Source: Deltaproteobacteria bacterium
GTDB taxonomy: Bacteria; Desulfobacterota; Syntrophia; Syntrophales; Smithellaceae
DNA length: 64,000 nucleotides
Direction of reading: 5' to 3'
Assembly (NCBI GenBank): GCA_012729055.1
Contig: JAAYDW010000053.1
Location: 20,159-84,158, forward strand
The notes under the pieces were generated by a model. It was given only the letters and a program-made list of their open reading frames with translations, was not told the DNA's origin and made no database searches. Positions 16,321-57,814 of the stretch are shown here, in pieces. Position numbers and translations under genes: made by a program. Each line of letters begins with the position of its first letter. Position 1 is the stretch's first letter.

Positions 16321-16395
16321 GGGCCGTTAGCTCAGCGGTAGAGCAGCGGACTTTTAATCCGTTGGCCGCGGGTTCAATCCCCGCACGGCCCACCA
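16321..16395 (+). tRNA. tRNA-Lys (anticodon UUU), CCA encoded
   Basis: Cloverleaf fits: acceptor GGGCCGT/ACGGCCC, D-stem GCTC/GAGC, anticodon stem GCGGA/TCCGT with loop CTTTTAA, T-arm GCGGG TTCAATC CCCGC, ACCA end. Confidence 0.97.
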
Positions 16396-17966: not shown

Positions 17967-19829
17967 TTACCAGGCAAATGCCTCTTCCGTAATTTCCAGC
18001 GCGGACTTTTCGTTCATCTTGATCGCTTCGCAGCGGGCTTTCACCGTGGTCAGGATTTCATTGGCGAAAAATTTGGCGGACGCAATTCTTCCGCTGTAGA
18101 AGGCGGCATCCTTGTCGGAGCGCTGCAGGGCTTTCTGCTTGCCGGGCGAGGTCGCCCCCTGCGCTTCGTAAACGGCGGCCAGTTTTCCGGACGCGACATC
18201 TGCGGCGTCCAGAAGGAAATGGCCGACAATGACGTCCCCGAAAATTTCCAGGAATTTGCAGGCGTTCAGTATCGGCAGCAGGAAATCGCCGGACTTTCCG
18301 GCCTGGGCGAAAAACATCGTCAGCTCGAGGCAGGCGTTTAAAGCCTCTTCGAGCAGCGCGGCGGATTGGGCCAGATCCTCGTTCTTTTTGGCGCGGGCAA
18401 TGTTCTGCTGAACAAGGCCGGCCATGTTCATGACATTGGCGCCCTTGCGCTGACCGAGCTTGCGTCCGACCAGGTCGAGCGCCTGAATGCCGTTCGTGCC
18501 TTCGTAAATGGTGGCGATTTTCTCGTCGCGCAGATACTGTTCCACGGGATATTCCGAACAGTACCCGTAGCCGCCGTAAACGTCCATCGCCATGGAGCAG
18601 GACAGCAGTCCCTTGTCCGTGGTCCAGGCCTTGACGATCGGCGTGAGCAGATCCAGGAAGCCTTCCCACTTGGCCTTTTCCTCATCGGTCCTGGCGACTT
18701 TCGCCATGTCGATGCAGAACGCCGTGAAATAGCAGAGGCTGCGGGATCCTTCGACATGGGACTTGATCCAGAGCAGTTTCCGGCGCACGTCGGGATGGTT
18801 GATGATGGTCACCGGCTTGGCGTCCGGATTTTTCATCTCCCAGATCGCCGTGCCCTGCACGCGCTCCTTTGCGTACTGCACGGCATGTTCCAGGGCTGCG
18901 GAGGAAAGCACCAGGCCCTGCATGCCGGTTCCGAGACGCGCTTCGTTCATCATCATGAACATGATCTTGATGCCTTCGCGCTCGTTGCCCAGGAGTTCGC
19001 CGATGCAGTTTCCGTCTTCGCCGAAATTGAGCGTGGCCGTGGCCGATCCCTTGATGCCCATCTTGTGTTCGATGCCGCCGGTTTTAACGTCGTTGGGTTC
19101 GCCCAGGCTGCCGTCGTCGTTGACGCGGATCTTGGGAACGATGAAAATGGAAATGCCCTTGGTGCCGGGAGGATCGCCTTCAATGCGCGCCAGAACCGGG
19201 TGGACGATGTTCGGGGTCAGATCATGATCGCCCGCGGAAATAAAGCACTTGGTGCCCGTGATCAGGTACTTGCCGTCCGGCAGCTTCTTGGCGGTCGTTT
19301 TGAGCGCGCCGACGTCCGAGCCCGCGCCCGGCTCGGTGAGGCACATGGTTCCCGTCCACTCTCCGGAAAACATTTTATCCATGTATTTTCTTTTCTGCGC
19401 TTCGGTGCCGTAATGATGAATCAGCGTGGCGGCGCCGTGCGTCAGTCCCGGATACATGGAAAAAGCGTAGTTTGCTGCGCCGAAGTATTCCAGCGCGGCA
19501 AACCCGACGGCCGCCGGAACCCCCTGACCGCCCACCTCGGGCGAGTCCATGGGATTGATCCAACCGCCCTCGCAGTATTTCTTGAACGGTTCACGGAAGC
19601 ATTTGGGAACGGTGACAACACCGTCCTTGATGTGACAGCCTTCCTCATCTCCTTCCTTGCAGGCCGGCGCCAGCTCGTTGACGGCAAGTTTCTCGGCCTC
19701 ATTCAGGATCATGGTGAGATCATCCTTGGCAAAATCCTTGTAGGCTTCATATTCAAACAATTTTTCGATCCCCAGTTGCTCGAACAGAACGAACTGCTGA
19801 TCCCTCGTATTCACTAATCCGTTACTCAT
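17967..19829 (-). CDS. Acyl-CoA dehydrogenase, about 620 aa with C-terminal extension
   Basis: GTMCLTEPGAGSDVGALKTTA, GTKCFISAGDHD, YGGYGYCSEYPVEQYLRDEKIATIYEGTNGIQALDLVGRKL. Confidence 0.95.
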   Translation of the reverse strand: MSNGLVNTRDQQFVLFEQLGIEKLFEYEAYKDFAKDDLTMILNEAEKLAVNELAPACKEGDEEGCHIKDGVVTVPKCFREPFKKYCEGGWINPMDSPEVGGQGVPAAVGFAALEYFGAANYAFSMYPGLTHGAATLIHHYGTEAQKRKYMDKMFSGEWTGTMCLTEPGAGSDVGALKTTAKKLPDGKYLITGTKCFISAGDHDLTPNIVHPVLARIEGDPPGTKGISIFIVPKIRVNDDGSLGEPNDVKTGGIEHKMGIKGSATATLNFGEDGNCIGELLGNEREGIKIMFMMMNEARLGTGMQGLVLSSAALEHAVQYAKERVQGTAIWEMKNPDAKPVTIINHPDVRRKLLWIKSHVEGSRSLCYFTAFCIDMAKVARTDEEKAKWEGFLDLLTPIVKAWTTDKGLLSCSMAMDVYGGYGYCSEYPVEQYLRDEKIATIYEGTNGIQALDLVGRKLGQRKGANVMNMAGLVQQNIARAKKNEDLAQSAALLEEALNACLELTMFFAQAGKSGDFLLPILNACKFLEIFGDVIVGHFLLDAADVASGKLAAVYEAQGATSPGKQKALQRSDKDAAFYSGRIASAKFFANEILTTVKARCEAIKMNEKSALEITEEAFAW

Positions 19830-19877: not shown

Positions 19878-21419
19878 TTACTTTTTCGCCGTCGGCGCAA
19901 AGCTTTTGTAAGATTCATCGATCGGGGGCATTTGCACGCAGTCCTCGATCAGGGGAAGTTTTCCGTAAGTGGTATCGTCCTGCCATCCGTCCATGTGCGC
20001 GGCGCGCCTTGCCGCCGCCTGAAGCTTTTTCCAGTTGGCGCTGCCGTAGAGGAACATCTCCTGGGCCGCCATCGATCCTTCGCCGTGAATCGTATCGACC
20101 TGCCAGTGATTTCCGGTGCAGTCCTTGATGAGGCGCAGAATGCGCAGCCGGTCTTCGGTGGGAACGCCGTCTTTTGCCGCCAGGTACTTGTCGATAAACG
20201 GCTTGATTTCCGGATTGTCCCAATCCCGGAAAGCGGGAACCGTGGTGGTGAGTCCGCCGCCGATATCGTGCATGTGCTGACACATCGTGTGGAAGTTGCT
20301 CGCATAGGTCCACTTCGAAGCGTTGATCGCCATGCGGTTGGGCATCATGACGTCCATGCCGAATTCCGTCACCGGGTCGAGGCAGGCCTGTTTGGCCAGC
20401 ATCTGGACGGTTTCCGTGATGTAGGCCATCCAGGCGAGCTTTTTGCGCACATGCGGAACATTCTGCACGCCGTTGTAGTCGGCGATGAGACTGGCCGCGC
20501 CGGTCATCAGTTCCAGCGTTCCCGTCATCTTGCAGGTGCCGAAGAGGCGATGATAGCTGGCAAACGCATACGCCAGCACCTGGGAATACTGCCACTCGCC
20601 GCACATGAAAACGCGCTCCCAGGGAACAAACACATCGTCAAAGACAATGAGGGACTCCGAAGGCTGCAGATGATCCGAGGTCGGGTAATCGAATTCGCAT
20701 TCCTCTCCGTACAACCGGACGTTGGGCTCAACCCCCAGGAGTTTCACGCCCTTTGTGGCGACCGGTATTGCAAAGCCCAGCGCATAGTCCTTGTCCGCTT
20801 CGCCGTGCGTCCGGCAGGGAAGACACAAAAGTTCATTGGCGCAGGGGGACGCGCTGATGTGAACTTTGGCGCCCCGGACGATGATGCCGTCCTTCTGCCG
20901 GTCCACGATCCGCAGGTAAAAATCCTTGTGCTGTTTCTGCTGCGAGGGATGAAGGCTGCGGTCGCCTTTCACGTCGGTGATCGCCCCGGTCAGCGCCAGG
21001 TCGTTTTTCTGAAGGTACCGGCGGTAATTTTCGACGCGCTCCCTGTAGCCCGTGCCCATTTTCTTATCCATCACTTCCGCAGCCACGCTGAACGCGGCCA
21101 GCGCGTCCGCGCCCATGCAGTGGACCAGCACGCCGCCGCCGGTTCGCATGCCGGCCATGTAGCACTCACGCCGGCGCAGCATGTCCTGCGGCGTTTTCGG
21201 CGAGGTGAGCAGAAAATTGATGTCTTCGCCATCCGCGTTCTTCGTGACGAACAAATCCCGGTAATCGGGATGGTTCGGCAAAACATAGTCCATCGCCGCC
21301 ATGCGGACAATGGTACTCACGGTTGGGTGCGTCCGGACATCCCGAACCTTTTCACCCAGACACCAGACTTCCCGGCCGTCATTCAAGCTTTCCAGATACT
21401 GCTCAACTGTTTTGATCAT
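19878..21419 (-). CDS. 4-hydroxyphenylacetate 3-hydroxylase / 4-hydroxybutyryl-CoA dehydratase family protein
   Basis: Family-like architecture: TGAITDVKGDRSLHPS, DGIIVRGAKVHISASP, DDVFVPWERVFMCGEW, ASYHRLFGTCKMTG. Confidence 0.88.
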   Translation of the reverse strand: MIKTVEQYLESLNDGREVWCLGEKVRDVRTHPTVSTIVRMAAMDYVLPNHPDYRDLFVTKNADGEDINFLLTSPKTPQDMLRRRECYMAGMRTGGGVLVHCMGADALAAFSVAAEVMDKKMGTGYRERVENYRRYLQKNDLALTGAITDVKGDRSLHPSQQKQHKDFYLRIVDRQKDGIIVRGAKVHISASPCANELLCLPCRTHGEADKDYALGFAIPVATKGVKLLGVEPNVRLYGEECEFDYPTSDHLQPSESLIVFDDVFVPWERVFMCGEWQYSQVLAYAFASYHRLFGTCKMTGTLELMTGAASLIADYNGVQNVPHVRKKLAWMAYITETVQMLAKQACLDPVTEFGMDVMMPNRMAINASKWTYASNFHTMCQHMHDIGGGLTTTVPAFRDWDNPEIKPFIDKYLAAKDGVPTEDRLRILRLIKDCTGNHWQVDTIHGEGSMAAQEMFLYGSANWKKLQAAARRAAHMDGWQDDTTYGKLPLIEDCVQMPPIDESYKSFAPTAKK

Positions 21420-21640: not shown

Positions 21641-23305
21641 TTACTTTTTGCTTTTCGCGATTTCCTCTTCGCGCAGGATCTTGCGCAGGATCTTGCCGAC
21701 AGCCGACTTCGGCAGCTCCTTGCGGAATTCGACCAGCTTCGGCACCTTGTAGGGCGCGAGCTTTTCCTTGCAGAAGGCGATGATTTCCTTGTCGGTGGCT
21801 TCGACACCCGGTTTCAGAACGATGAAGGCTTTCACCGTTTCCCCGCGGTACGTGTCGGGCACGCCCGCCGAAACCGCCTCGGCAATCTTGGGATGCTGGT
21901 ACAGGACTTCATCGACCTCGCGGGGATAAATGTTGAAGCCTCCGGCGATGATCATATCTTTCTTGCGGTCCACGATGTAGAAATAGCCGTCTTCGTCCAT
22001 CTGCGCAATGTCGCCGGTGGAAAGCCATCCGTCCTTCAACTGGTTGGCCGTTTCTTCCGGGTTCTGCCAGTACTCCTGCATGATTGTGGGACCTTTGATC
22101 AGAATTTCACCCGGTTCGCCGGGTTTGACATCATTGAGACCCGTTTCCACGTCGACCAGGCGCACGTCATTGCCGGGATACGGACAGCCGATGGATCCCG
22201 CCTTGTGGCGGAGAATCGGAATGCTGATGCCGACGGAAGCCGTTTCGCTCATGCCCCAGCCTTCATTGAAAAAGATTCCGATGTCCTTGACCCGCTGGAT
22301 CAGCTCGACGGGCATGGGGGCGCCGCCCGTGCTGAGCAGGCGGATCTTGGCGCCCAGATCGAGTTCCGCGGCTTTGGGATGGTTGACGATTGCCGTCACC
22401 ATCGTCGGCACGGTCGGGAAGTACGTGATTTCATCGACGCTGGCCAGCACGGCCATAAATTCTTCCAGTTCGAATCTCGGAAACATCACCTGCGTGGCGG
22501 CGTTGAACATTCCCCAGTTCATGGAAAACGTGTTGCCGTAAATGTGAAAATACGGAATGGCGGCGATGACGGCCCGCTGCGCGTGGGGAATATAGGTCGT
22601 GATGGAATTTCCCCAAAGCGAGCCCTGCAGGGTGCCGGCGATGAGGTTGGAATGCGTGAGCAGCGCGCCTTTCGGCAACCCCGTCGTGCCTCCCGTGAAC
22701 TGGATCAGAGCGGGGTCTTCAGACGAAACATTGACTCTCGGCATGCTTTCATCCGTGGCGCTTTCCACCAGTTCGGAAAAATGCTTCCAGCCCTCCTCCA
22801 GCTCGAGGCTTTTCGTCGTACTCACCGGGAACCCCTGGATGTAATCCGTCACCTTCGTGATGATGACGTTTTTCAGCCCCAGCTCTTTGGCCAGCGGCCG
22901 CATCACGGGCAGAACCGTGTCGAATGTGAACAGCGTCTGCAAACCGGAATTTTCCATCATGAACTTGAGCTCATCATGGGTGTAAAGGGGATTCATATTC
23001 ACGACGATCGCGCCCGCCGACAGAGCGGCGTAGTATGCGACAATATACTGGGGGCAGTTGGGGAGCGCCAGGCCCACGCGGTCGCCTTTTTTCACGCCCA
23101 TCCTGATCAGGGCGTTGGACAGCCTGAGCATCTGGGAACGGATCTGGCGAAATGTCATCGTCGATCCATAGATGTTGGTCGCGGCCTTGCGGGGAAACAT
23201 GGTGGCCGCCAGATGAACCAGGCTCTGAACGGGGATTTTCGGGAACTGAATGGTGTGCGGGACATTATAATCGTAATACTTTACCCAGGGTTTTGCTTCA
23301 AACAT
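21641..23305 (-). CDS. Long-chain acyl-CoA ligase (AMP-forming)
   Basis: LIQFTGGTTGLPKGALLTHSN, GWLSTGDIAQMDEDGYFYIVDRKKDMIIAGGFNIYPREVDEVL, PKSAVGKILRKILREEE. Confidence 0.95.
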   Translation of the reverse strand: MFEAKPWVKYYDYNVPHTIQFPKIPVQSLVHLAATMFPRKAATNIYGSTMTFRQIRSQMLRLSNALIRMGVKKGDRVGLALPNCPQYIVAYYAALSAGAIVVNMNPLYTHDELKFMMENSGLQTLFTFDTVLPVMRPLAKELGLKNVIITKVTDYIQGFPVSTTKSLELEEGWKHFSELVESATDESMPRVNVSSEDPALIQFTGGTTGLPKGALLTHSNLIAGTLQGSLWGNSITTYIPHAQRAVIAAIPYFHIYGNTFSMNWGMFNAATQVMFPRFELEEFMAVLASVDEITYFPTVPTMVTAIVNHPKAAELDLGAKIRLLSTGGAPMPVELIQRVKDIGIFFNEGWGMSETASVGISIPILRHKAGSIGCPYPGNDVRLVDVETGLNDVKPGEPGEILIKGPTIMQEYWQNPEETANQLKDGWLSTGDIAQMDEDGYFYIVDRKKDMIIAGGFNIYPREVDEVLYQHPKIAEAVSAGVPDTYRGETVKAFIVLKPGVEATDKEIIAFCKEKLAPYKVPKLVEFRKELPKSAVGKILRKILREEEIAKSKK

Positions 23306-23641
23306 CGGATACCTCCTTCAAAAAAATGGTCTCGAGACAAACGCTCGCGCCTCGTTATTTTTTTATATCGTTTGAACGCTATATCCGTCCCGACTCTGCC
23401 TCCCGATCTTCTGAAAAAAAAACACGCCAGACGAAAGGATCTTCTCCGGAATTGCTCTGAAAAGAACAGGCGGGGGAATTTATGAAACCACGAAAACACT
23501 CCTGTGTCCGAAAAGCTGTTTACAAATTTTTATCCGGCGCCAACCGATTCCAGTGCCTTTCATACACGATAATTTCTTTATATTCAACAGATTTTATAAA
23601 TATATTTACTTTGTTATTGCAAATATTTACACACTTATGCT

Positions 23642-23657
23642 AAACAGACGTATGTTT
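23642..23657. promoter_or_regulatory. Candidate operator AAACAGACGTATGTTT (14/16 palindromic)
   Basis: Abuts a TATGCT -10-like hexamer at 23636-23641 upstream of the TetR gene. Related to the sites at 27728 and 28069. Confidence 0.55.
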
Positions 23658-23857
23658 TATTTCAGAGGCCCTTGCTTTTACCCAAACGGTCTGGTATTGA
23701 TGCAGCATCTATTGGAAAACTCTGCCGTTGCCCCATGCATGATCAGCCATGCGACCGGGTTATTTTTTTTACTGCCGACGGGCATCAGGCCCGGAAAAAG
23801 AAAAACACCGGATCCCTGCGGAAACACGCAAAACGTTGCCGACCGGAAAGGAGACAC

Positions 23858-24508
23858 ATGAACGATCAACACAGCATCAAGGCGCCCGGCGCCGCGCAGA
23901 CACTGCCGGAAACAGGCAATCCAGAAGCCGTCAATAAAAGGCAGTCTCAAATCGTTAAGAAAGCATCGCGCCTGTTCATCAAGAAGGGTTATGCCCAGAC
24001 CACCATGCGCGATATCTCCAAGGCGACGGGCATCAATCTGGGAAATTTGTACAACTACATCAGCAGCAAAGAAGACATCCTGTGCCTTGCCTTCGAAACG
24101 TATCACGATCCGGCCGTCGCATGGCTGGAACGCAAGGGCGTTCTTGATATCGAGGATCCGAAGGAACAGCTGCAAACCGCTCTGCATCAGATCCTGATCA
24201 TGACGCATGACGTCATGAACGACATTCTGATGATGTACCGTGAAACGCGGGTCCTGCCTCCCAAATTCCTGAAGATCGTCCTGAAAAAGGAAAGCGATCT
24301 CGTCGACTTTTTTGAAAAGATCATCACCCGGGGCATGGAAAAAAAGGTTTTTCGCGTCCGTGATCCTTTTTTTGCCGCCAATATGCTGGTCTTCCAGCTG
24401 TCTCTGTATCCCCTGAGAAGCTGGAACCTGAAACGTTACACCCGGGATGAGTTCCTGGCCCTGGCGGAGGAAACCATCCTCAAGGCCATCATTCCCGACT
24501 ACGCATAA
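23858..24508 (+). CDS. TetR family transcriptional regulator
   Basis: RQSQIVKKASRLFIKKGYAQTTMRDISKATGINLGNLYNYISSKEDILCLAF is a TetR HTH. ATG at 23858 preceded by AAAGGAGA. Confidence 0.93.
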   Translation: MNDQHSIKAPGAAQTLPETGNPEAVNKRQSQIVKKASRLFIKKGYAQTTMRDISKATGINLGNLYNYISSKEDILCLAFETYHDPAVAWLERKGVLDIEDPKEQLQTALHQILIMTHDVMNDILMMYRETRVLPPKFLKIVLKKESDLVDFFEKIITRGMEKKVFRVRDPFFAANMLVFQLSLYPLRSWNLKRYTRDEFLALAEETILKAIIPDYA

Positions 24509-24531
24509 AATTTCATGACAAGGAGAACATC

Positions 24532-26469
24532 ATGAGCGCCTTTAGTCACCTTCTGTCCCCTCTGACCGTCAAATCCCTGACCCTCGCCAACCGCGTCGTC
24601 ATGCCCCCCATGGGAACAAACCTGGGAAACGCCGACGGCACCGTGAGCGACGAAAATCTCGCCTATCTGAAACGCAGGGCCCAAGGACGACCCGGACTGA
24701 TCATCACAGAGATCACCGGCGTTCATCCCGACGGCATGGTGTCCCCGCATCAGCTTGCGGCCTATGACGACCGTTTTCTCCCCGGCTTGGACCGGATGGC
24801 GCGGGCCGCCCGCGACGCGGGGTGCAAGATCGCCCTGCAACTGCACCACAGCGGCCGGGAAAGCCTTTACCTGCTGGGCAAGGGAAGAGCCGTGGCGCCT
24901 TCGGCGATTCCGAGCATCGTCTTTAAGGGCGCTCCCCGGGAGATGACGAAGGCGGATATCGAAGAAGTGATTGCGGCCTTCGGCAGGGCGGCGGCAAGAG
25001 CGCGCACGGCCGGATTTGACGCGGTGGAAATTCACTGCGCGCACGGCTATCTGCTGACGCAGTTCCTATCGGCCCTTTCCAATCAGCGCACCGACGAATA
25101 CGGCGGCAACACGATCCGGGAGCGTTCGCGTTTCGTCCTCGACGTCATCCGGGAAATCCGGCGGCAGGTGGGCGCCGATTACCCCGTCTCCATCCGCATC
25201 TCAGCAGAAGAGTACATCAAGGGCGGCTACAGCGCCGACGATATGCAGGGCATCGCGCCTGATTTCGTAGAAGCCGGCGCCGATATTATCCACGCCTCGT
25301 TCGGCACGCACGGGAGCCCCGGCGGCATCACCCAGGCGCCGGCCGAGTTCGCCCCCGGGTTCAACGCCTGGCTGGCGCGGAAAATGAAGGACGTCGTGTC
25401 CGTTCCCGTCATCGCCGTCGGACGCTTCACCGATCCCGCGGCGGCGGACGAAACACTCGCCCGCGGCGACGCGGATCTTGTCGCTTTCGGCCGGCAGTTT
25501 CTGGCGGATCCCGACTTCCTGGTGAAAGCGCAGGAAGGCCGGACGGACGACATCCGCCTGTGCATCGCCTGCAACCAGGGGTGCATCGAGCGGGAAATCC
25601 TCGGCGAGGGCAACATCCGCTGCTCCATCAATCCCGAAACAGGCCAGGAAACGCTGTATCCCCGGGAAAAAACAGCCCGGCCGAAAAATGTCTGGGTCGT
25701 GGGAGCGGGCCCCGCGGGTCTTACGGCGGCCGCCGAGGCGGACCGTCTCGGACACCGCGTTACGCTTTTTGAAAAAAAGAACATCCTGGGCGGCCAGATC
25801 CGCTACGCGCAGATTCCGCCGCACAAGGAAATTTACGGCCAGTGGATCGACTGGCTGATCGGCCAGGTCCGCAAAACGGGCGTCGCCATTAAAAGCGAAA
25901 CGGAAGTGGACGAAGCACTGCTCAAAGAAGGGAAACCGGACGCTGTGATTCTGGCCACCGGCGGAGAAAAGCTGGTTCCGCCGATTCCGGGGATTGACGG
26001 CGCAAAGGTTTGCGACGCCTGGCAGATCCTCGACGGCCGGATCGCTCCCGGCGAAAATATTGTCATTATCGGCGGAGCGCTGATCGGCATGGAAACGGCC
26101 GATTTCCTGACCGAGCGGGGCAAAACCGTCACGATCCTGGAAATGCTCAAGCGCTCGCCCGTCCTCAAGATCACCTCCCACGGCTACATGCTGCACAAAC
26201 GCCTGCGGGACCGCGCCTGCAAGTTTCTCTTCGGCGCCCGCGTGACGGCGGTCGATGAGACGGGCGTCACGTTCAGCGCTGAAGGACAGACTGCCGTTAT
26301 CTCCCCTGTGGATCAGGTGGTTGTCGCCGCCGGCATGAAACCCTCAAACGCCCTGGAAGCCATTTGTACAAAACTCGGCATTGCGTTCAAAACGGTGGGC
26401 GACGCGAGCTCACCCCGCCGGATCATCGAAGCCACGGATGAAGGAGCGCGGGCCGCCTGGGAGCTGTGA
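24532..26469 (+). CDS. NADH:flavin oxidoreductase / 2,4-dienoyl-CoA reductase-like protein (OYE barrel plus FAD/NAD domains)
   Basis: FDAVEIHCAHGYLLTQFLS..NQRTDEYGG, CIACNQGCIEREILGEGNIRCSINP Fe-S motif, VVGAGPAGLTAAAEADRLGHRVTLFEK. Confidence 0.94.
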   Translation: MSAFSHLLSPLTVKSLTLANRVVMPPMGTNLGNADGTVSDENLAYLKRRAQGRPGLIITEITGVHPDGMVSPHQLAAYDDRFLPGLDRMARAARDAGCKIALQLHHSGRESLYLLGKGRAVAPSAIPSIVFKGAPREMTKADIEEVIAAFGRAAARARTAGFDAVEIHCAHGYLLTQFLSALSNQRTDEYGGNTIRERSRFVLDVIREIRRQVGADYPVSIRISAEEYIKGGYSADDMQGIAPDFVEAGADIIHASFGTHGSPGGITQAPAEFAPGFNAWLARKMKDVVSVPVIAVGRFTDPAAADETLARGDADLVAFGRQFLADPDFLVKAQEGRTDDIRLCIACNQGCIEREILGEGNIRCSINPETGQETLYPREKTARPKNVWVVGAGPAGLTAAAEADRLGHRVTLFEKKNILGGQIRYAQIPPHKEIYGQWIDWLIGQVRKTGVAIKSETEVDEALLKEGKPDAVILATGGEKLVPPIPGIDGAKVCDAWQILDGRIAPGENIVIIGGALIGMETADFLTERGKTVTILEMLKRSPVLKITSHGYMLHKRLRDRACKFLFGARVTAVDETGVTFSAEGQTAVISPVDQVVVAAGMKPSNALEAICTKLGIAFKTVGDASSPRRIIEATDEGARAAWEL

Positions 26470-26489
26470 TTTCGCGAACCGCCTCATAA

Positions 26490-26526
26490 AAAAAGGGGGC
26501 GGGGAGCAACATGCTTCCCGCCCCCT
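26490..26526 (-). terminator. Rho-independent terminator of the nitronate monooxygenase-like gene
   Basis: GGGGGCGGGGAGCA-ACA-TGCTTCCCGCCCCC, with a T-run on the minus strand. Confidence 0.85.
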
Positions 26527-26551
26527 GCTCATTCGTCAGACAGGGACCTTT

Positions 26552-27664
26552 TTAAGCCAGCAATTTCTTTTCCACACCGCGGAGAATTTCTTCCGCCTCT
26601 TTCACGACCTTCTGAACCATGTCGTCGACTTTTGGCATGTCGCCGATGCGCTGCGCGCACTCGCCGGCGGCCATCATCGCCTTTTCCTGATTGCCGTCGT
26701 AAACCGCTTTGATCGATTCCAGTTCATAGTCGATCAGCTTCATATCAATCGAGCTGAAATCGTCGGGTGTTCCCAAAAACACGCCGGGGGATTTCTTGAG
26801 CGTGTTGACCGCATGCTCCTCGCTGCGCTTGTTTTTGATCCAGCGCGCGGGACCGACAAAACCGCGGGCCACCAGCGTTCCCCGGTCTCCGGCCGCCACG
26901 ACGCCTTCCTTCCATATCTGGTGAAAATCGCTTTCCTGGGTCGCGAGAAATCGCGTGCCCATCTGCACGCCGTCTGCGCCCAGAACCAGCGCAGCCGCCA
27001 GCGTTTTGCCGTCGCAGTAACCGCCGGCGCCGCACACCAGCGTCTTGTCGTCGGAAACCGCTTCCACCACGGCCGGCAGCAGAATCATCGAGTGTACCGG
27101 TTCCCAGGAGGTGTGGAATCCTCCCTCGTGACCGGAAGCGACGATGACATCCACACCCGCCTTCTTGCAGCGCTGCGCGCCCTTCACGGACGGAACCACG
27201 TGCATCCAGGTAAATCCCGCGCCTTTGATCTTGTCGTGCCAGGGAACGGGATCGCCCGCCGACGTAAAGATCACCTTGAAGTGTTTTTTCATGTCGGGAT
27301 TTTTCTCCCGCACTTCAATCGCCTTGCTGATAATGATATCCGCTTCCTGGGCCATTTCCGCGGACACCATCACATTGATGCCGAACACGCCGTTTTTGTC
27401 CTTCGTCAGGCGGTACGTCCGCTGCAGCACCTTTTCCATGGCGGTTTCCATATCGTCGTCCGGATTCGCCTCAGCGGTCTTGATCCAGGCGTCATACACA
27501 AACGGCTGCATGTCCCTGCCGGTCAAACCGCTTGTGGACAAGAGCCCCAGCACGCCGGCATTGGCCGCCGCAACGCCCAGGTTGTTGTTGGAAAACGGGC
27601 CCATTCCCGCCTGGATGATCGGGTATCTCGTTCCGATCAGGTCGCAAAGTCTTGATTTAATCAT
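26552..27664 (-). CDS. Nitronate monooxygenase / 2-nitropropane dioxygenase-like flavoprotein
   Basis: GTRYPIIQAGMGPFSNNNLGVAAANAGVLGLLSTSG, VIVASGHEGGFHTS, VCGAGGYCDGKTLAAALVLGADGVQMGTRFLATQES. Confidence 0.92.
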   Translation of the reverse strand: MIKSRLCDLIGTRYPIIQAGMGPFSNNNLGVAAANAGVLGLLSTSGLTGRDMQPFVYDAWIKTAEANPDDDMETAMEKVLQRTYRLTKDKNGVFGINVMVSAEMAQEADIIISKAIEVREKNPDMKKHFKVIFTSAGDPVPWHDKIKGAGFTWMHVVPSVKGAQRCKKAGVDVIVASGHEGGFHTSWEPVHSMILLPAVVEAVSDDKTLVCGAGGYCDGKTLAAALVLGADGVQMGTRFLATQESDFHQIWKEGVVAAGDRGTLVARGFVGPARWIKNKRSEEHAVNTLKKSPGVFLGTPDDFSSIDMKLIDYELESIKAVYDGNQEKAMMAAGECAQRIGDMPKVDDMVQKVVKEAEEILRGVEKKLLA

Positions 27665-27727
27665 GAAACGCCTCCTTAAAGTATTTTGAATATCAAGATG
27701 CCGTTTGGCGCACCTGGCGCATTAATA

Positions 27728-27743
27728 AAACGGACGTTCATTT
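27728..27743. promoter_or_regulatory. Candidate operator AAACGGACGTTCATTT
   Basis: Lies just downstream of a minus-strand TTGACA-17 nt-TAGTAG promoter-like element (27747-27775) for the 26552-27664 gene. Confidence 0.5.
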
Positions 27744-28068
27744 TGCCTACTAAAATATCGTCGTTATTTTGTCAAGAATTTTATATTGTTAAACACATAA
27801 TATATTTATTTCATAAATAATTTCATCACACATCCCTACACAGAACACTCGTTTTTTTCCGGGAAGGCAACCAAAAAGACTTTTTTGCCGCGCCCGATGC
27901 AGGAACGCAGACGAAGACAGGTTACCCGGCTAAGCCAACACAGCGGAATCGCGGAGCACCGCGGCGGCCGCCGTAAAAACGCCGCTTTTTCGCGGGACAA
28001 GACGGCATGGAGCCGATTAAATCCCGTCCGATCCGTCTTCCCGAAGCGGGGGCCGTCAAAAGGAAAGC

Positions 28069-28084
28069 AAACAAACGTCCGTTT
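28069..28084. promoter_or_regulatory. Candidate operator AAACAAACGTCCGTTT
   Basis: Reverse complement AAACGGACGTTTGTTT is 14/16 identical to the 27728 site and 14/16 to the 23642 site. Confidence 0.5.
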
Positions 28085-28422: not shown

Positions 28423-29877
28423 ATGAAGCAGATGGGTAAGTGTTTTGCAGTAGTTTTTCTCGCACTCTTCGTATGGTCCATGGCTGTCGTGAGCCCGACC
28501 ACAGCGCTTTCGGCTAAAGCGGACAAAACCGCAAAAGCGCCGAAAGCCGCCGCGTCGTTTGACGCGGCAAAATTGGCGGATATGTCGGACTTCGATCCGG
28601 GCAATCCCGTAACGCCTACGGGCGACACGATCAAGATCGCCGTCGTCGCGGCCTTCTCCGGACCCAGCGCCTACAACGGACAGATTTACTATGCCATGGT
28701 GCAATGGGTGGCCCACGACATCAACAAGCGCGGCGGCCTTCTGGTGGACGGCAAGAAAAAACTGATTGAAGTCATCAAAGCCGATCACCAGTCCAAAGTG
28801 GATCAATGCAAAAAGGTTACGGAGCGGATGGCCCTGCAGGAAAAAGTCCATTTCTTCTGGGGAACGGACGGCAGCCACTTCATGAAAGTCATCAACGACA
28901 CCGCCCGCAAGTATAAGATCATCGCCGTCAACGCCACCTGCATGTCCGACGACCTTCAGGACGCGGTGAACTTCTCGCCCTACGCTTTCCACGCGACCTT
29001 CTCCACCGCTTCCGTCGCGCGCGGCCTGGCTTACTACTACGGCCAGATCCGCAAAAAGGAGAAAAAATTCTACATCCTCAATCAGGATTACGCCTTCGGC
29101 CGCCAGTTCGCGGAAGATTTCAAGCAGGGCCTGAAGGAATACTACCCCGAAGCACAGGTGGTGGGTGAAGATTACCACAAGCTGTTCCTCACCGACTACG
29201 CCCCCTACCTCACCAAAATCAAGGCTTCCGGCGCCGAAGTCATTTTCACGGGCGACTGGCTTCCGGATGCGGGCAACCTGCTGAAGCAGGCGCGCCAAAT
29301 GGGCATCACCCTGCCTTTCGCCAACGTCTACGTGGACGAACCCAACTATCTCAACGAAACGGGCGTCGAAGGCACCAAGGGTCTGGTGAACATCAGCGCC
29401 TACTATGACACCACCCCCTTCTTTAAAACCAAAGAACAAATTAAATTCTATACCACCTGGAAGGAACAGCAGAAAAAATGGAAGACCCTTCCTTACAGCA
29501 GCATCGCCTTCCAGCACTTCACGGCCAACGCCGCCGGCTGGGTCATGACGACCTACTGGGCGATGAGCGTTCTGGAACGGGCGCAGAGCACCGATCCGGA
29601 AAAGATCATCAAGGTCTGGGAAAATGACAGCTTCGAGTACATCAACGGCAAGGTCGTCAAAATGCGGGCCTGCGATCACAAGGCGATCATGGATCTCGGC
29701 GTCACCGAGTACGTGCCGCCTCAAGAGCAGAAAATCGCAATGAATATTCCTCCCTACTTCTGGTTTAAAAACGCCTCCTACACGGGGCCGGTTTACAAAG
29801 TTCCGGCCGCCAAGGTTCTTCCCCAAATGGATCAGAAACTGGATCGCTGCAAGGGAAAGAATAACTGGGGCGAATAA
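28423..29877 (+). CDS. ABC transporter periplasmic substrate-binding protein (branched-chain amino acid type, Peripla_BP_6-like)
   Basis: Signal peptide; IKIAVVAAFSGPSAYNGQIYYAMVQWVAHDINKRGG; periplasmic-binding architecture. ATG at 28423 with GAGGAAAG upstream; the ORF-track start is too far upstream. Confidence 0.9.
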   Translation: MKQMGKCFAVVFLALFVWSMAVVSPTTALSAKADKTAKAPKAAASFDAAKLADMSDFDPGNPVTPTGDTIKIAVVAAFSGPSAYNGQIYYAMVQWVAHDINKRGGLLVDGKKKLIEVIKADHQSKVDQCKKVTERMALQEKVHFFWGTDGSHFMKVINDTARKYKIIAVNATCMSDDLQDAVNFSPYAFHATFSTASVARGLAYYYGQIRKKEKKFYILNQDYAFGRQFAEDFKQGLKEYYPEAQVVGEDYHKLFLTDYAPYLTKIKASGAEVIFTGDWLPDAGNLLKQARQMGITLPFANVYVDEPNYLNETGVEGTKGLVNISAYYDTTPFFKTKEQIKFYTTWKEQQKKWKTLPYSSIAFQHFTANAAGWVMTTYWAMSVLERAQSTDPEKIIKVWENDSFEYINGKVVKMRACDHKAIMDLGVTEYVPPQEQKIAMNIPPYFWFKNASYTGPVYKVPAAKVLPQMDQKLDRCKGKNNWGE

Positions 29878-30160: not shown

Positions 30161-31699
30161 ATGAAGGCAAAAAACGCAAGCCCCCTCCTCGCATACCTGA
30201 AAAAACTGATCCCCATCTGTACACTTTTGTGTCTGCTCCTCATTTCGTCCTGCTCGCCCACCGATTCGGTGCGGCCGGCGCTCAAAATTTTCACGCTGGC
30301 CGTGCCCAGTGCAACGGAACTTTATTTCGGAGAAAAGAGGGATTTTTATGTGGTCGCCTATTTTGAGCAGGGCGCTCCCGTGTTGAGCAACGTCCGGATC
30401 GAGCTTTTCCGCGGCGAAATTCCGCTCGGAGCGCCGGTGCGCCTCCTCGAAAGCCGGCTGGATGAAAACGGCGTGACGCCGGATGCAGCCATTTTGCAAA
30501 ACTACGCCGAAGGCCAGGGCTGGAACCTGGACAAGGCGCCTGATCTCGTTCTCGCTCCCGGAGGATTCCGTTATCCCGGAAACAAGCTCCTGGTCACCCA
30601 GAAATATTTTGCGGGCATCATTCTGGGCGGCGCCACGAAAGATTTCGACACCGACTATGTGGATGCATCCGGCGCGGCGCTCGAAGATCTCACGGAAGGC
30701 GTCTATACGCTGCGGGTGACGGTCTTTTCGCATGGATTCATCCTGCAGGCCGAAACCCTCAAGCTGTATTTCAAACCCGTCTTCAAGCTGTTCGGCGCCT
30801 TCCAGCCCGCCAACCACGAAGGCAAGTTGAAAGCGTACGCGGCGGCAAACGGCTACCGGGTTTTCCTGGATCCCTTCGCCGGCTATTTCTTTCCCGAAGG
30901 CTACTCCGTTGGAAACTACAAAATCAACAAACGCTGGCGGCCGCAGAATTCCCTGGAAGTCGTCAATACCGTCGCTGGAACATCTTACGGCACGCCGGAA
31001 AACGCGCGGATCGGCTTCATCCTGTATAACCTGGTCGAATCCGGCACCACGTCCCGCCTGGAAATCGGCAAAGCCCTGCTGACGGGCGTCATCGACAGCC
31101 CCAACACTTTTTTCTTCCGCTATGACATCGGCGAGCCGGAAATCGTCTATGTCAACAGAGCCTCCGAGGAGAAAACCCTCGCAGGCTTGATCGTCGCCTT
31201 TGCTTCCGCCGACCGCCTCGCGTTCACGCGGGCCGAAATCCGGGCGCGCGGCACGGGCGACGGCGACAACCGCTACAGCCTCTACGACAGAACACCCAAA
31301 ACGCAGGACCTCAATCTGGCCGACGGCCTCCAGATAGCCGAAAGCGAAGAATTCAGCGTTTACGGCGTCGTCAAACCGATCGCGACATCCGTGACCGAAA
31401 CGTCTTACCTTTACTACGCGGCCGACAACCGGATCGCCCGCATCCGCTACCGCATCCGCAACGCACAGGGTGAAGAAGTCGCCGCAACCGTCCGCGAAAT
31501 CAATCTGGGAAGGATCTACCTCGCCGACGAACCGGAACGGCTGTTTTATTCGATATTCGAATTCGAGCATGAATTTGATCTTGGCGCCCTTCGCCTCGCC
31601 CCCGGAACATACACGCTCGAAACAACGGGCCTGGACGTGCCGGGCGACGAGGTGGCGGGAACGTTCGAGGCGATCACCGTACAATACGCTCTGCACTGA
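30161..31699 (+). CDS. Uncharacterised lipoprotein, 512 aa
   Basis: Signal peptide with lipobox-like LLLISSC; long ORF in the expected strand context. No family recognised. Confidence 0.75.
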   Translation: MKAKNASPLLAYLKKLIPICTLLCLLLISSCSPTDSVRPALKIFTLAVPSATELYFGEKRDFYVVAYFEQGAPVLSNVRIELFRGEIPLGAPVRLLESRLDENGVTPDAAILQNYAEGQGWNLDKAPDLVLAPGGFRYPGNKLLVTQKYFAGIILGGATKDFDTDYVDASGAALEDLTEGVYTLRVTVFSHGFILQAETLKLYFKPVFKLFGAFQPANHEGKLKAYAAANGYRVFLDPFAGYFFPEGYSVGNYKINKRWRPQNSLEVVNTVAGTSYGTPENARIGFILYNLVESGTTSRLEIGKALLTGVIDSPNTFFFRYDIGEPEIVYVNRASEEKTLAGLIVAFASADRLAFTRAEIRARGTGDGDNRYSLYDRTPKTQDLNLADGLQIAESEEFSVYGVVKPIATSVTETSYLYYAADNRIARIRYRIRNAQGEEVAATVREINLGRIYLADEPERLFYSIFEFEHEFDLGALRLAPGTYTLETTGLDVPGDEVAGTFEAITVQYALH

Positions 31700-57412: not shown

Positions 57413-57814
57413 ATGGAATTGATCGAAACCATCCCTCTGCAAAACGGCCTTCGGCTCACGATCCAGGACCTGTCGCGCCGCATTGCCGCGGACACGGTAA
57501 AAGTCGAAATTTCCATTCAGATGAAAGTGAAAGTCGAAGAATCCTTCTTCGCATCCTCCGACGACCACCGTCAGCTCACCGACATCTTCGGCGACGAACT
57601 CACTTACGAGCACAAACTGGAGCGGACGTTCGTTTCCGACGCCGGAAGAGACGCCGCCCGCGCCCTGCTGCTGAAAACGTTCAAGGACAATTCCCTTCAG
57701 TATCTGTCATCGCCCAACTTCGCGCGAAAAATGGCCCTCTCGCTGCTTCGGGACATCAAAGGCAATCCCTACAAGTACCGACGGGCGCCTCTGGCCGAAG
57801 AGCCGGAAGGATAA
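57413..57814 (+). CDS. Hypothetical protein, 133 aa
   Basis: ORF upstream of and co-oriented with the radical SAM gene, promoter-like TTGCAG-17-TATGAC upstream. Confidence 0.65.
   Translation: MELIETIPLQNGLRLTIQDLSRRIAADTVKVEISIQMKVKVEESFFASSDDHRQLTDIFGDELTYEHKLERTFVSDAGRDAARALLLKTFKDNSLQYLSSPNFARKMALSLLRDIKGNPYKYRRAPLAEEPEG

Follow-up and report, generated by a model that had tools for sequence, protein, structure and literature searches.

PsrA, FadP and LiuQ are examples of TetR-type regulators that, in Proteobacteria, govern the breakdown of fatty acids and of branched-chain amino acids (PMC5343134). Across the lineages surveyed, LiuQ and FadP are described as restricted to betaproteobacteria, and deltaproteobacteria had orthologues of just five regulators (PMC5343134). 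Gene regulation in the uncultured syntrophic Smithellaceae seems to have been little described; our search of the open literature found no TetR regulon described in these organisms, and no description of the motif or regulon reported here. What is reported is a real, conserved set of candidate TetR operators together with its probable regulon, larger than first described and of an established kind. Our main reading, to which we assign a probability of about 0.85, is that the palindromes presented below are operators, predicted from sequence, for TetR1, the TetR-family product of the gene at 23858, and that they define a scattered regulon for acyl-CoA metabolism and uptake.

The window, that is, the whole 64-kb stretch of DNA that was analysed (G000:C30:20159-84158), belongs to a genome of 3.36 Mb in 113 contigs. 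An earlier note on this DNA had drawn attention to three noncoding 16-mers at 23642, 27728 and 28069. All are present and all are intergenic (O1, O2 and O3; Table 1), a recount agrees with the 14/16 identities claimed among them, and they can be written as one motif, AAACNNACGTNNGTTT. They are also the sole matches without mismatch, in the window, to the loose consensus AAACRGACGTWYRTTT. O1 is a palindrome close to the regulator's own gene, 200 nt upstream of tetR1, a position kept in relatives. The TATGCT element said to abut it was found at 23636-23641, the TTGACA-17-TAGTAG promoter said to precede O2 was found on the minus strand (27775-27770 and 27752-27747), and the distance from O3 to the ABC binding-protein gene, given as about 350 nt, was measured as 338 nt. 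The proposal of a TetR regulon with three sites is supported, and it proved incomplete: it missed the divergent ligase operon at O1 and a fourth site beyond the window, the perfect palindrome AAACATACGTATGTTT at G000:C4:32834, upstream of a second BP gene.

Table 1. Genes, candidate operators and putative promoters around the sites (positions in the window)
Feature	Position	Strand	Basis or remark
Acyl-CoA dehydrogenase	17967..19829	-	48 nt after the HpaB-like gene
HpaB / 4-hydroxybutyryl-CoA dehydratase-like flavoprotein	19878..21419	-	PDB 1u8v, E 1.1e-76
Acyl-CoA ligase (AMP-binding), divergent from tetR	21641..23305	-	Orthologues adjoin the site in G006, G008, G018
Ligase operon divergent promoter, TTGAAT-17-TATGAA	23559..23587	-	Sequence and alignment
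O1, AAACAGACGTATGTTT	23642..23657	.	Divergent acyl-CoA ligase / tetR intergenic region
TetR-family regulator TetR1	23858..24508	+	Pfam TetR_N 1.6e-11, TetR_C_24 1.4e-8; AlphaFold pLDDT 85.3
2,4-Dienoyl-CoA reductase / OYE-like flavoenzyme	24532..26469	+	Pfam Oxidored_FMN, Pyr_redox_2
Nitronate monooxygenase / FabK-like enoyl reductase (NMO)	26552..27664	-	Pfam NMO 8.6e-42
O2, AAACGGACGTTCATTT	27728..27743	.	3 nt past the -10 of the NMO-like gene
NMO promoter, TTGACA-17-TAGTAG	27747..27775	-	Sequence; conserved in G008, G009, G007
O3, AAACAAACGTCCGTTT	28069..28084	.	Upstream of the BP gene
BP promoter, TTGACA-15-TATAAA	28150..28176	+	Conserved in G008, G015, G004
Branched-chain-type ABC transporter substrate-binding protein (BP)	28423..29877	+	Pfam Peripla_BP_6 9.8e-53

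The dienoyl-CoA reductase-like gene starts 23 nt past tetR1; the top NCBIfam match of its product is BaiCD-like, below the cut-off. Since the ligase, HpaB-like and acyl-CoA dehydrogenase genes are on the minus strand, O1 lies in a divergent region, a ligase/tetR gap of 552 bp, and not only upstream of tetR1. The HpaB-like protein aligns best with 4-hydroxybutyryl-CoA dehydratase (1u8v), but its reaction is uncertain, because a valine stands opposite the first Cys of the CxxxC pair of 1u8v; the second Cys is retained, as is the H...C pair, with a spacing one residue shorter. Downstream of BP, a 512-aa ORF on the plus strand (30161-31699) has zero Pfam matches. The window also carries a tRNA gene (16321-16392, plus strand; Rfam RF00005, 76 bits), and an Rfam search of the BP leader found no family covering it.

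TetR1 has the two domains of its family, each scoring above the Pfam cut-off: an N-terminal TetR_N helix-turn-helix (PF00440, 44.3 bits against 24) and a C-terminal ligand domain (PF17932 TetR_C_24, 35.4 bits against 26.4). Its AlphaFold model is all helical and matches TetR structures with a TMt of about 0.8. It falls below the thresholds of the NCBIfam equivalogs for FadR (NF053878, 34.4 bits against 200), PsrA (NF053516, 23.4 against 300) and RefZ (NF037937, 49.7 against 180). The nearest structures by sequence are AibR (5k7f, E 2e-11) and PfmR; by fold they are PfmR, AibR with isovaleryl-CoA and DNA, and Bacillus FadR. With PfmR, AibR and FadR as structural relatives, an acyl-CoA is the most likely effector of TetR1.

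Genome-wide statistics were obtained by pattern searches. With three mismatches allowed, the loose consensus gave 9 matches in the window, against a shuffle mean of 4.3, and 141/149 in the whole genome, against 130/132 for the reversed control. These counts are near chance and uninformative, and the case for the motif therefore rests on conservation and placement. Taken by themselves they would agree with the idea that the 16-mers, lying in AT-rich intergenic DNA, resemble each other by chance alone; we regard this as very improbable in view of their conservation in orthologous regions, of matrix matches on promoters outside the training set (see below), of the fourth site before a BP paralogue in the same genome, and of the operator swap described further on. 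The stricter palindrome AWACNNACGTNNGTWT has three exact matches in this genome and none in reversed controls, and each of the three precedes either the TetR/ligase pair or a BP gene. Several other matches were discarded: one at 57620 of the window lies inside a coding ORF, one-mismatch matches at L005 and L006 are coding, that at L072 is within an atpH-like gene, and that at L078 adjoins an unrelated gatB-like gene.

The records of the genus relatives used for comparison are labelled Syntrophaceae, Smithellaceae or Smithella. Seven other members of the genus have TetR1 orthologues (70-79% identity). More distant relatives of the protein occur in the same order (58%) and in a MAG labelled Desulfobacterales (67%), and a sample of the phylum contained no TetR1 relative past E 1e-60 except in G089. 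G006 (L057) has O1 unchanged, while the site reads ATACAAACGTATGTTT in G008 and ATACATACGTTTGTAT in G018; its counterpart at L063 is AAACAAACGTTTGTTT, accompanied by a tandem copy 24 bp off. In a five-way alignment, the operator and the divergent promoter, TTGAWW-16/17-TATDAN, are among the best conserved blocks.

A scoring matrix trained only on O1-type sites was then run on promoters belonging to homologues of BP, NMO and the ligase. It gave 20.4-22.2 for the BP orthologues of G008, G015 and G004, at -358 to -364, and 24.8 for the BP paralogue of the same genome on G000:C4. NMO orthologues, at -80/-83, the position of O2, scored 16.9 (G006) and 20.4 (G008), and paralogue promoters mostly stayed below 10. 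O2 itself is the weakest of the sites, with a held-out score of 11.2, which a chance match in coding DNA also reaches; its standing rests on the two NMO orthologues that score well at the same position. As the earlier note would have predicted, the sites are thus kept in the tetR, BP and NMO promoters of relatives.

Some genomes depart from this pattern and count against the model. The TetR1 orthologues of G009, G007 and G015 (77-79%) have no recognisable site upstream of tetR1, the sole related site in G009 and G007 being the weaker CAACAAACGTTAGTAT before BP, and the BP promoter of G006 has no site.

An exact scan of 20 genomes of the genus with AWACNNACGTNNGTWT found 14 places, a total not above that of the reversed control (21), so that placement, not number, carries the weight. 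Matches scattered through coding DNA would have spoken against a regulon: 13 of the 14 are intergenic, and 11 stand beside homologues of the genes around O1-O3. These include a G018 dienoyl-CoA reductase gene detached from tetR, and both BP and NMO in G008, where the cluster is complete and BP is followed by LivHMGF-like genes (named from translated starts only). The sites also track the regulator: regulon-type sites occur in 5/8 genomes with TetR1 and in 1/12 without it (Fisher P = 0.018). A further strong AAAC-type site lies 19 nt before an HdrB-like operon in G018 (G018:C119; L080; L173:3903-7519) that holds cysteine-rich (CCG) and FAD-linked oxidase genes. It was kept out of the 11, as degenerate counterparts near the ribosome-binding site are also found without TetR1.

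Could the palindromes be genuine operators of another regulator, for instance a paralogous TetR (C39, C51, C14)? The genome encodes four related TetRs, whose likely operators have an xxACxxACGTxxGTxx core in common, and G004 has the BP site although TetR1 was not found in its assembly, which also counts against our model. We nevertheless consider this improbable. The paralogues have variants of their own beside their own genes, CAACCAACGNTCGTTG for TetR2 and TAACGAACGTTCGATA for the C39 TetR, and the AAAC type adjoins TetR1 and rarely occurs in a genome that lacks it. TetR2 is a TetR1 paralogue (44-48% identical), with IDI[SR]NLYYF in the recognition helix where TetR1 has INLGNLYNY. The 20 genomes hold 21 exact matches to its motif and none to the reversed control, and many of the 21 lie beside TetR2 or NMO homologues. 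In G009, G007, G015 and G004, NMO orthologues (85-90%) adjoin TetR2, and these NMO promoters carry CAACCAACGCTCGTTG, or a one-base variant of it, just past the -10; the same sequence is found in the upstream region of TetR2 itself. NMO of G000 and of G008 has the AAAC type where the TetR2-adjoining orthologues carry the CAAC type. The operator type at NMO thus changes with the neighbouring TetR, which ties each motif to its TetR; no other finding speaks as strongly for each motif belonging to the TetR beside it.

The genome of the window (G000) holds further modules of this kind. On G000:C39 (L171:3126-9542), the TetR paralogue faces away from a second operon of acyl-CoA dehydrogenase, HpaB-like and ligase genes, and TAACGAACGTTCGATA stands between it and that operon. 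CAAC-type operators are found on G000:C51 (L172:8043-11988), upstream of an operon whose last gene is an NMO paralogue, beside TetR2, and on G000:C11 (L177:5361-5376), upstream of another BP paralogue. The TetR2 site of the C51 locus is at C51:127042.

Returning to TetR1 as the regulator of the AAAC-type sites, the sites, their conservation, their co-occurrence with TetR1 and the operator swap between paralogues are direct observations, on which the following mechanism is built. TetR1 probably binds each palindrome as a dimer, and would control at least four operators: those of the region between ligase-HpaB-acyl-CoA dehydrogenase and tetR1-dienoyl-CoA reductase, of NMO, of BP, and of the BP gene on G000:C4. 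O1 abuts TATGCT and O2 starts 3 nt past the -10, so that a dimer on either site would keep transcription from starting. At tetR1 and NMO, transcription would accordingly be repressed until the effector, predicted to be an acyl-CoA, releases the dimer.

Repression had been proposed from this geometry for the whole set; it suits tetR1 and NMO, where the operator comes directly past the -10, and not ligase and BP, where it lies far upstream of the -35. The gap from O1 to the ligase -35 is 54 nt, invariant in five genomes, and that from O3-type operators to the BP -35 is 64-67 nt in four genomes (65 nt in this one), distances that make both promoters a misfit for simple occlusion. Here TetR1 may activate or repress at a distance. 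One form of our main reading makes it a dual regulator, which represses tetR1 and NMO and activates ligase and BP. The fixed spacings, and spacers that are AT-rich, are in keeping with this, as is the precedent of AtrA, a TetR-type protein that activates a divergent target 425 bp away (PMC3511530). On the other hand, the promoter boxes were assigned by eye from conservation, and a simple consensus scan calls neither the ligase nor the BP promoter; the HpaB promoter of G009 is near consensus (TTGACA-17-TATAAT) and would need no activator; and the fixed spacing at O1 could merely reflect the intervening tetR promoter. We therefore hold dual regulation to be a tentative proposal, somewhat less likely than its opposite, and say the same of its corollary that the activating operators would have their centres some 100-110 bp before the start. 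In Streptomyces, 3/4 of the tested TetR-type regulators with a divergent gap of more than 200 bp left their neighbour unregulated, the fourth being the activator AtrA (PMC3511530). By analogy, the length of the ligase/tetR gap would speak against control of the ligase by TetR1.

A broader, and more doubtful, conjecture is that Smithella-type syntrophs carry duplicated acyl-CoA modules, every one of which has a TetR paralogue to itself and a distinct variant of one ancestral ACGT-centred operator; that promoters switch between modules by operator swap; and that TetR1, as a dual regulator, activates ligase and uptake from sites at a constant distance upstream and represses both its own gene and NMO. 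TetR1 and TetR2 offer a natural experiment in the divergence of operator specificity among paralogous TetR proteins, and the sites a ready DNA-binding assay. In addition, the predicted co-regulated set (ligase, HpaB-like, acyl-CoA dehydrogenase, dienoyl-CoA reductase-like, NMO-like and ABC uptake genes) can guide the assignment of the pathway.

Among known systems, PsrA, FadP and LiuQ resemble the TetR1 system in that one TetR has scattered operators before acyl-CoA genes. AibR (5k7f/5k7h/5k7z), solved with isovaleryl-CoA and with operator DNA, is the best PDB sequence match of TetR1 and a top fold match; it differs by its target genes and by an identity of about 20% over the fold. PfmR of Thermus thermophilus (3vpr) and Bacillus FadR (3whb/3whc, 5gp9), regulators of fatty-acid and acyl-CoA genes, have the fold of TetR1, the match to Bacillus FadR in NCBIfam being weak and TetR1 lying outside that equivalog family. 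Within the genus, the putative TetR2 regulon is like that of TetR1 in its NMO-type target, motif core and spacing, and differs from it in the outer half-site, CAAC where TetR1 has AAAC, and in the recognition helix.
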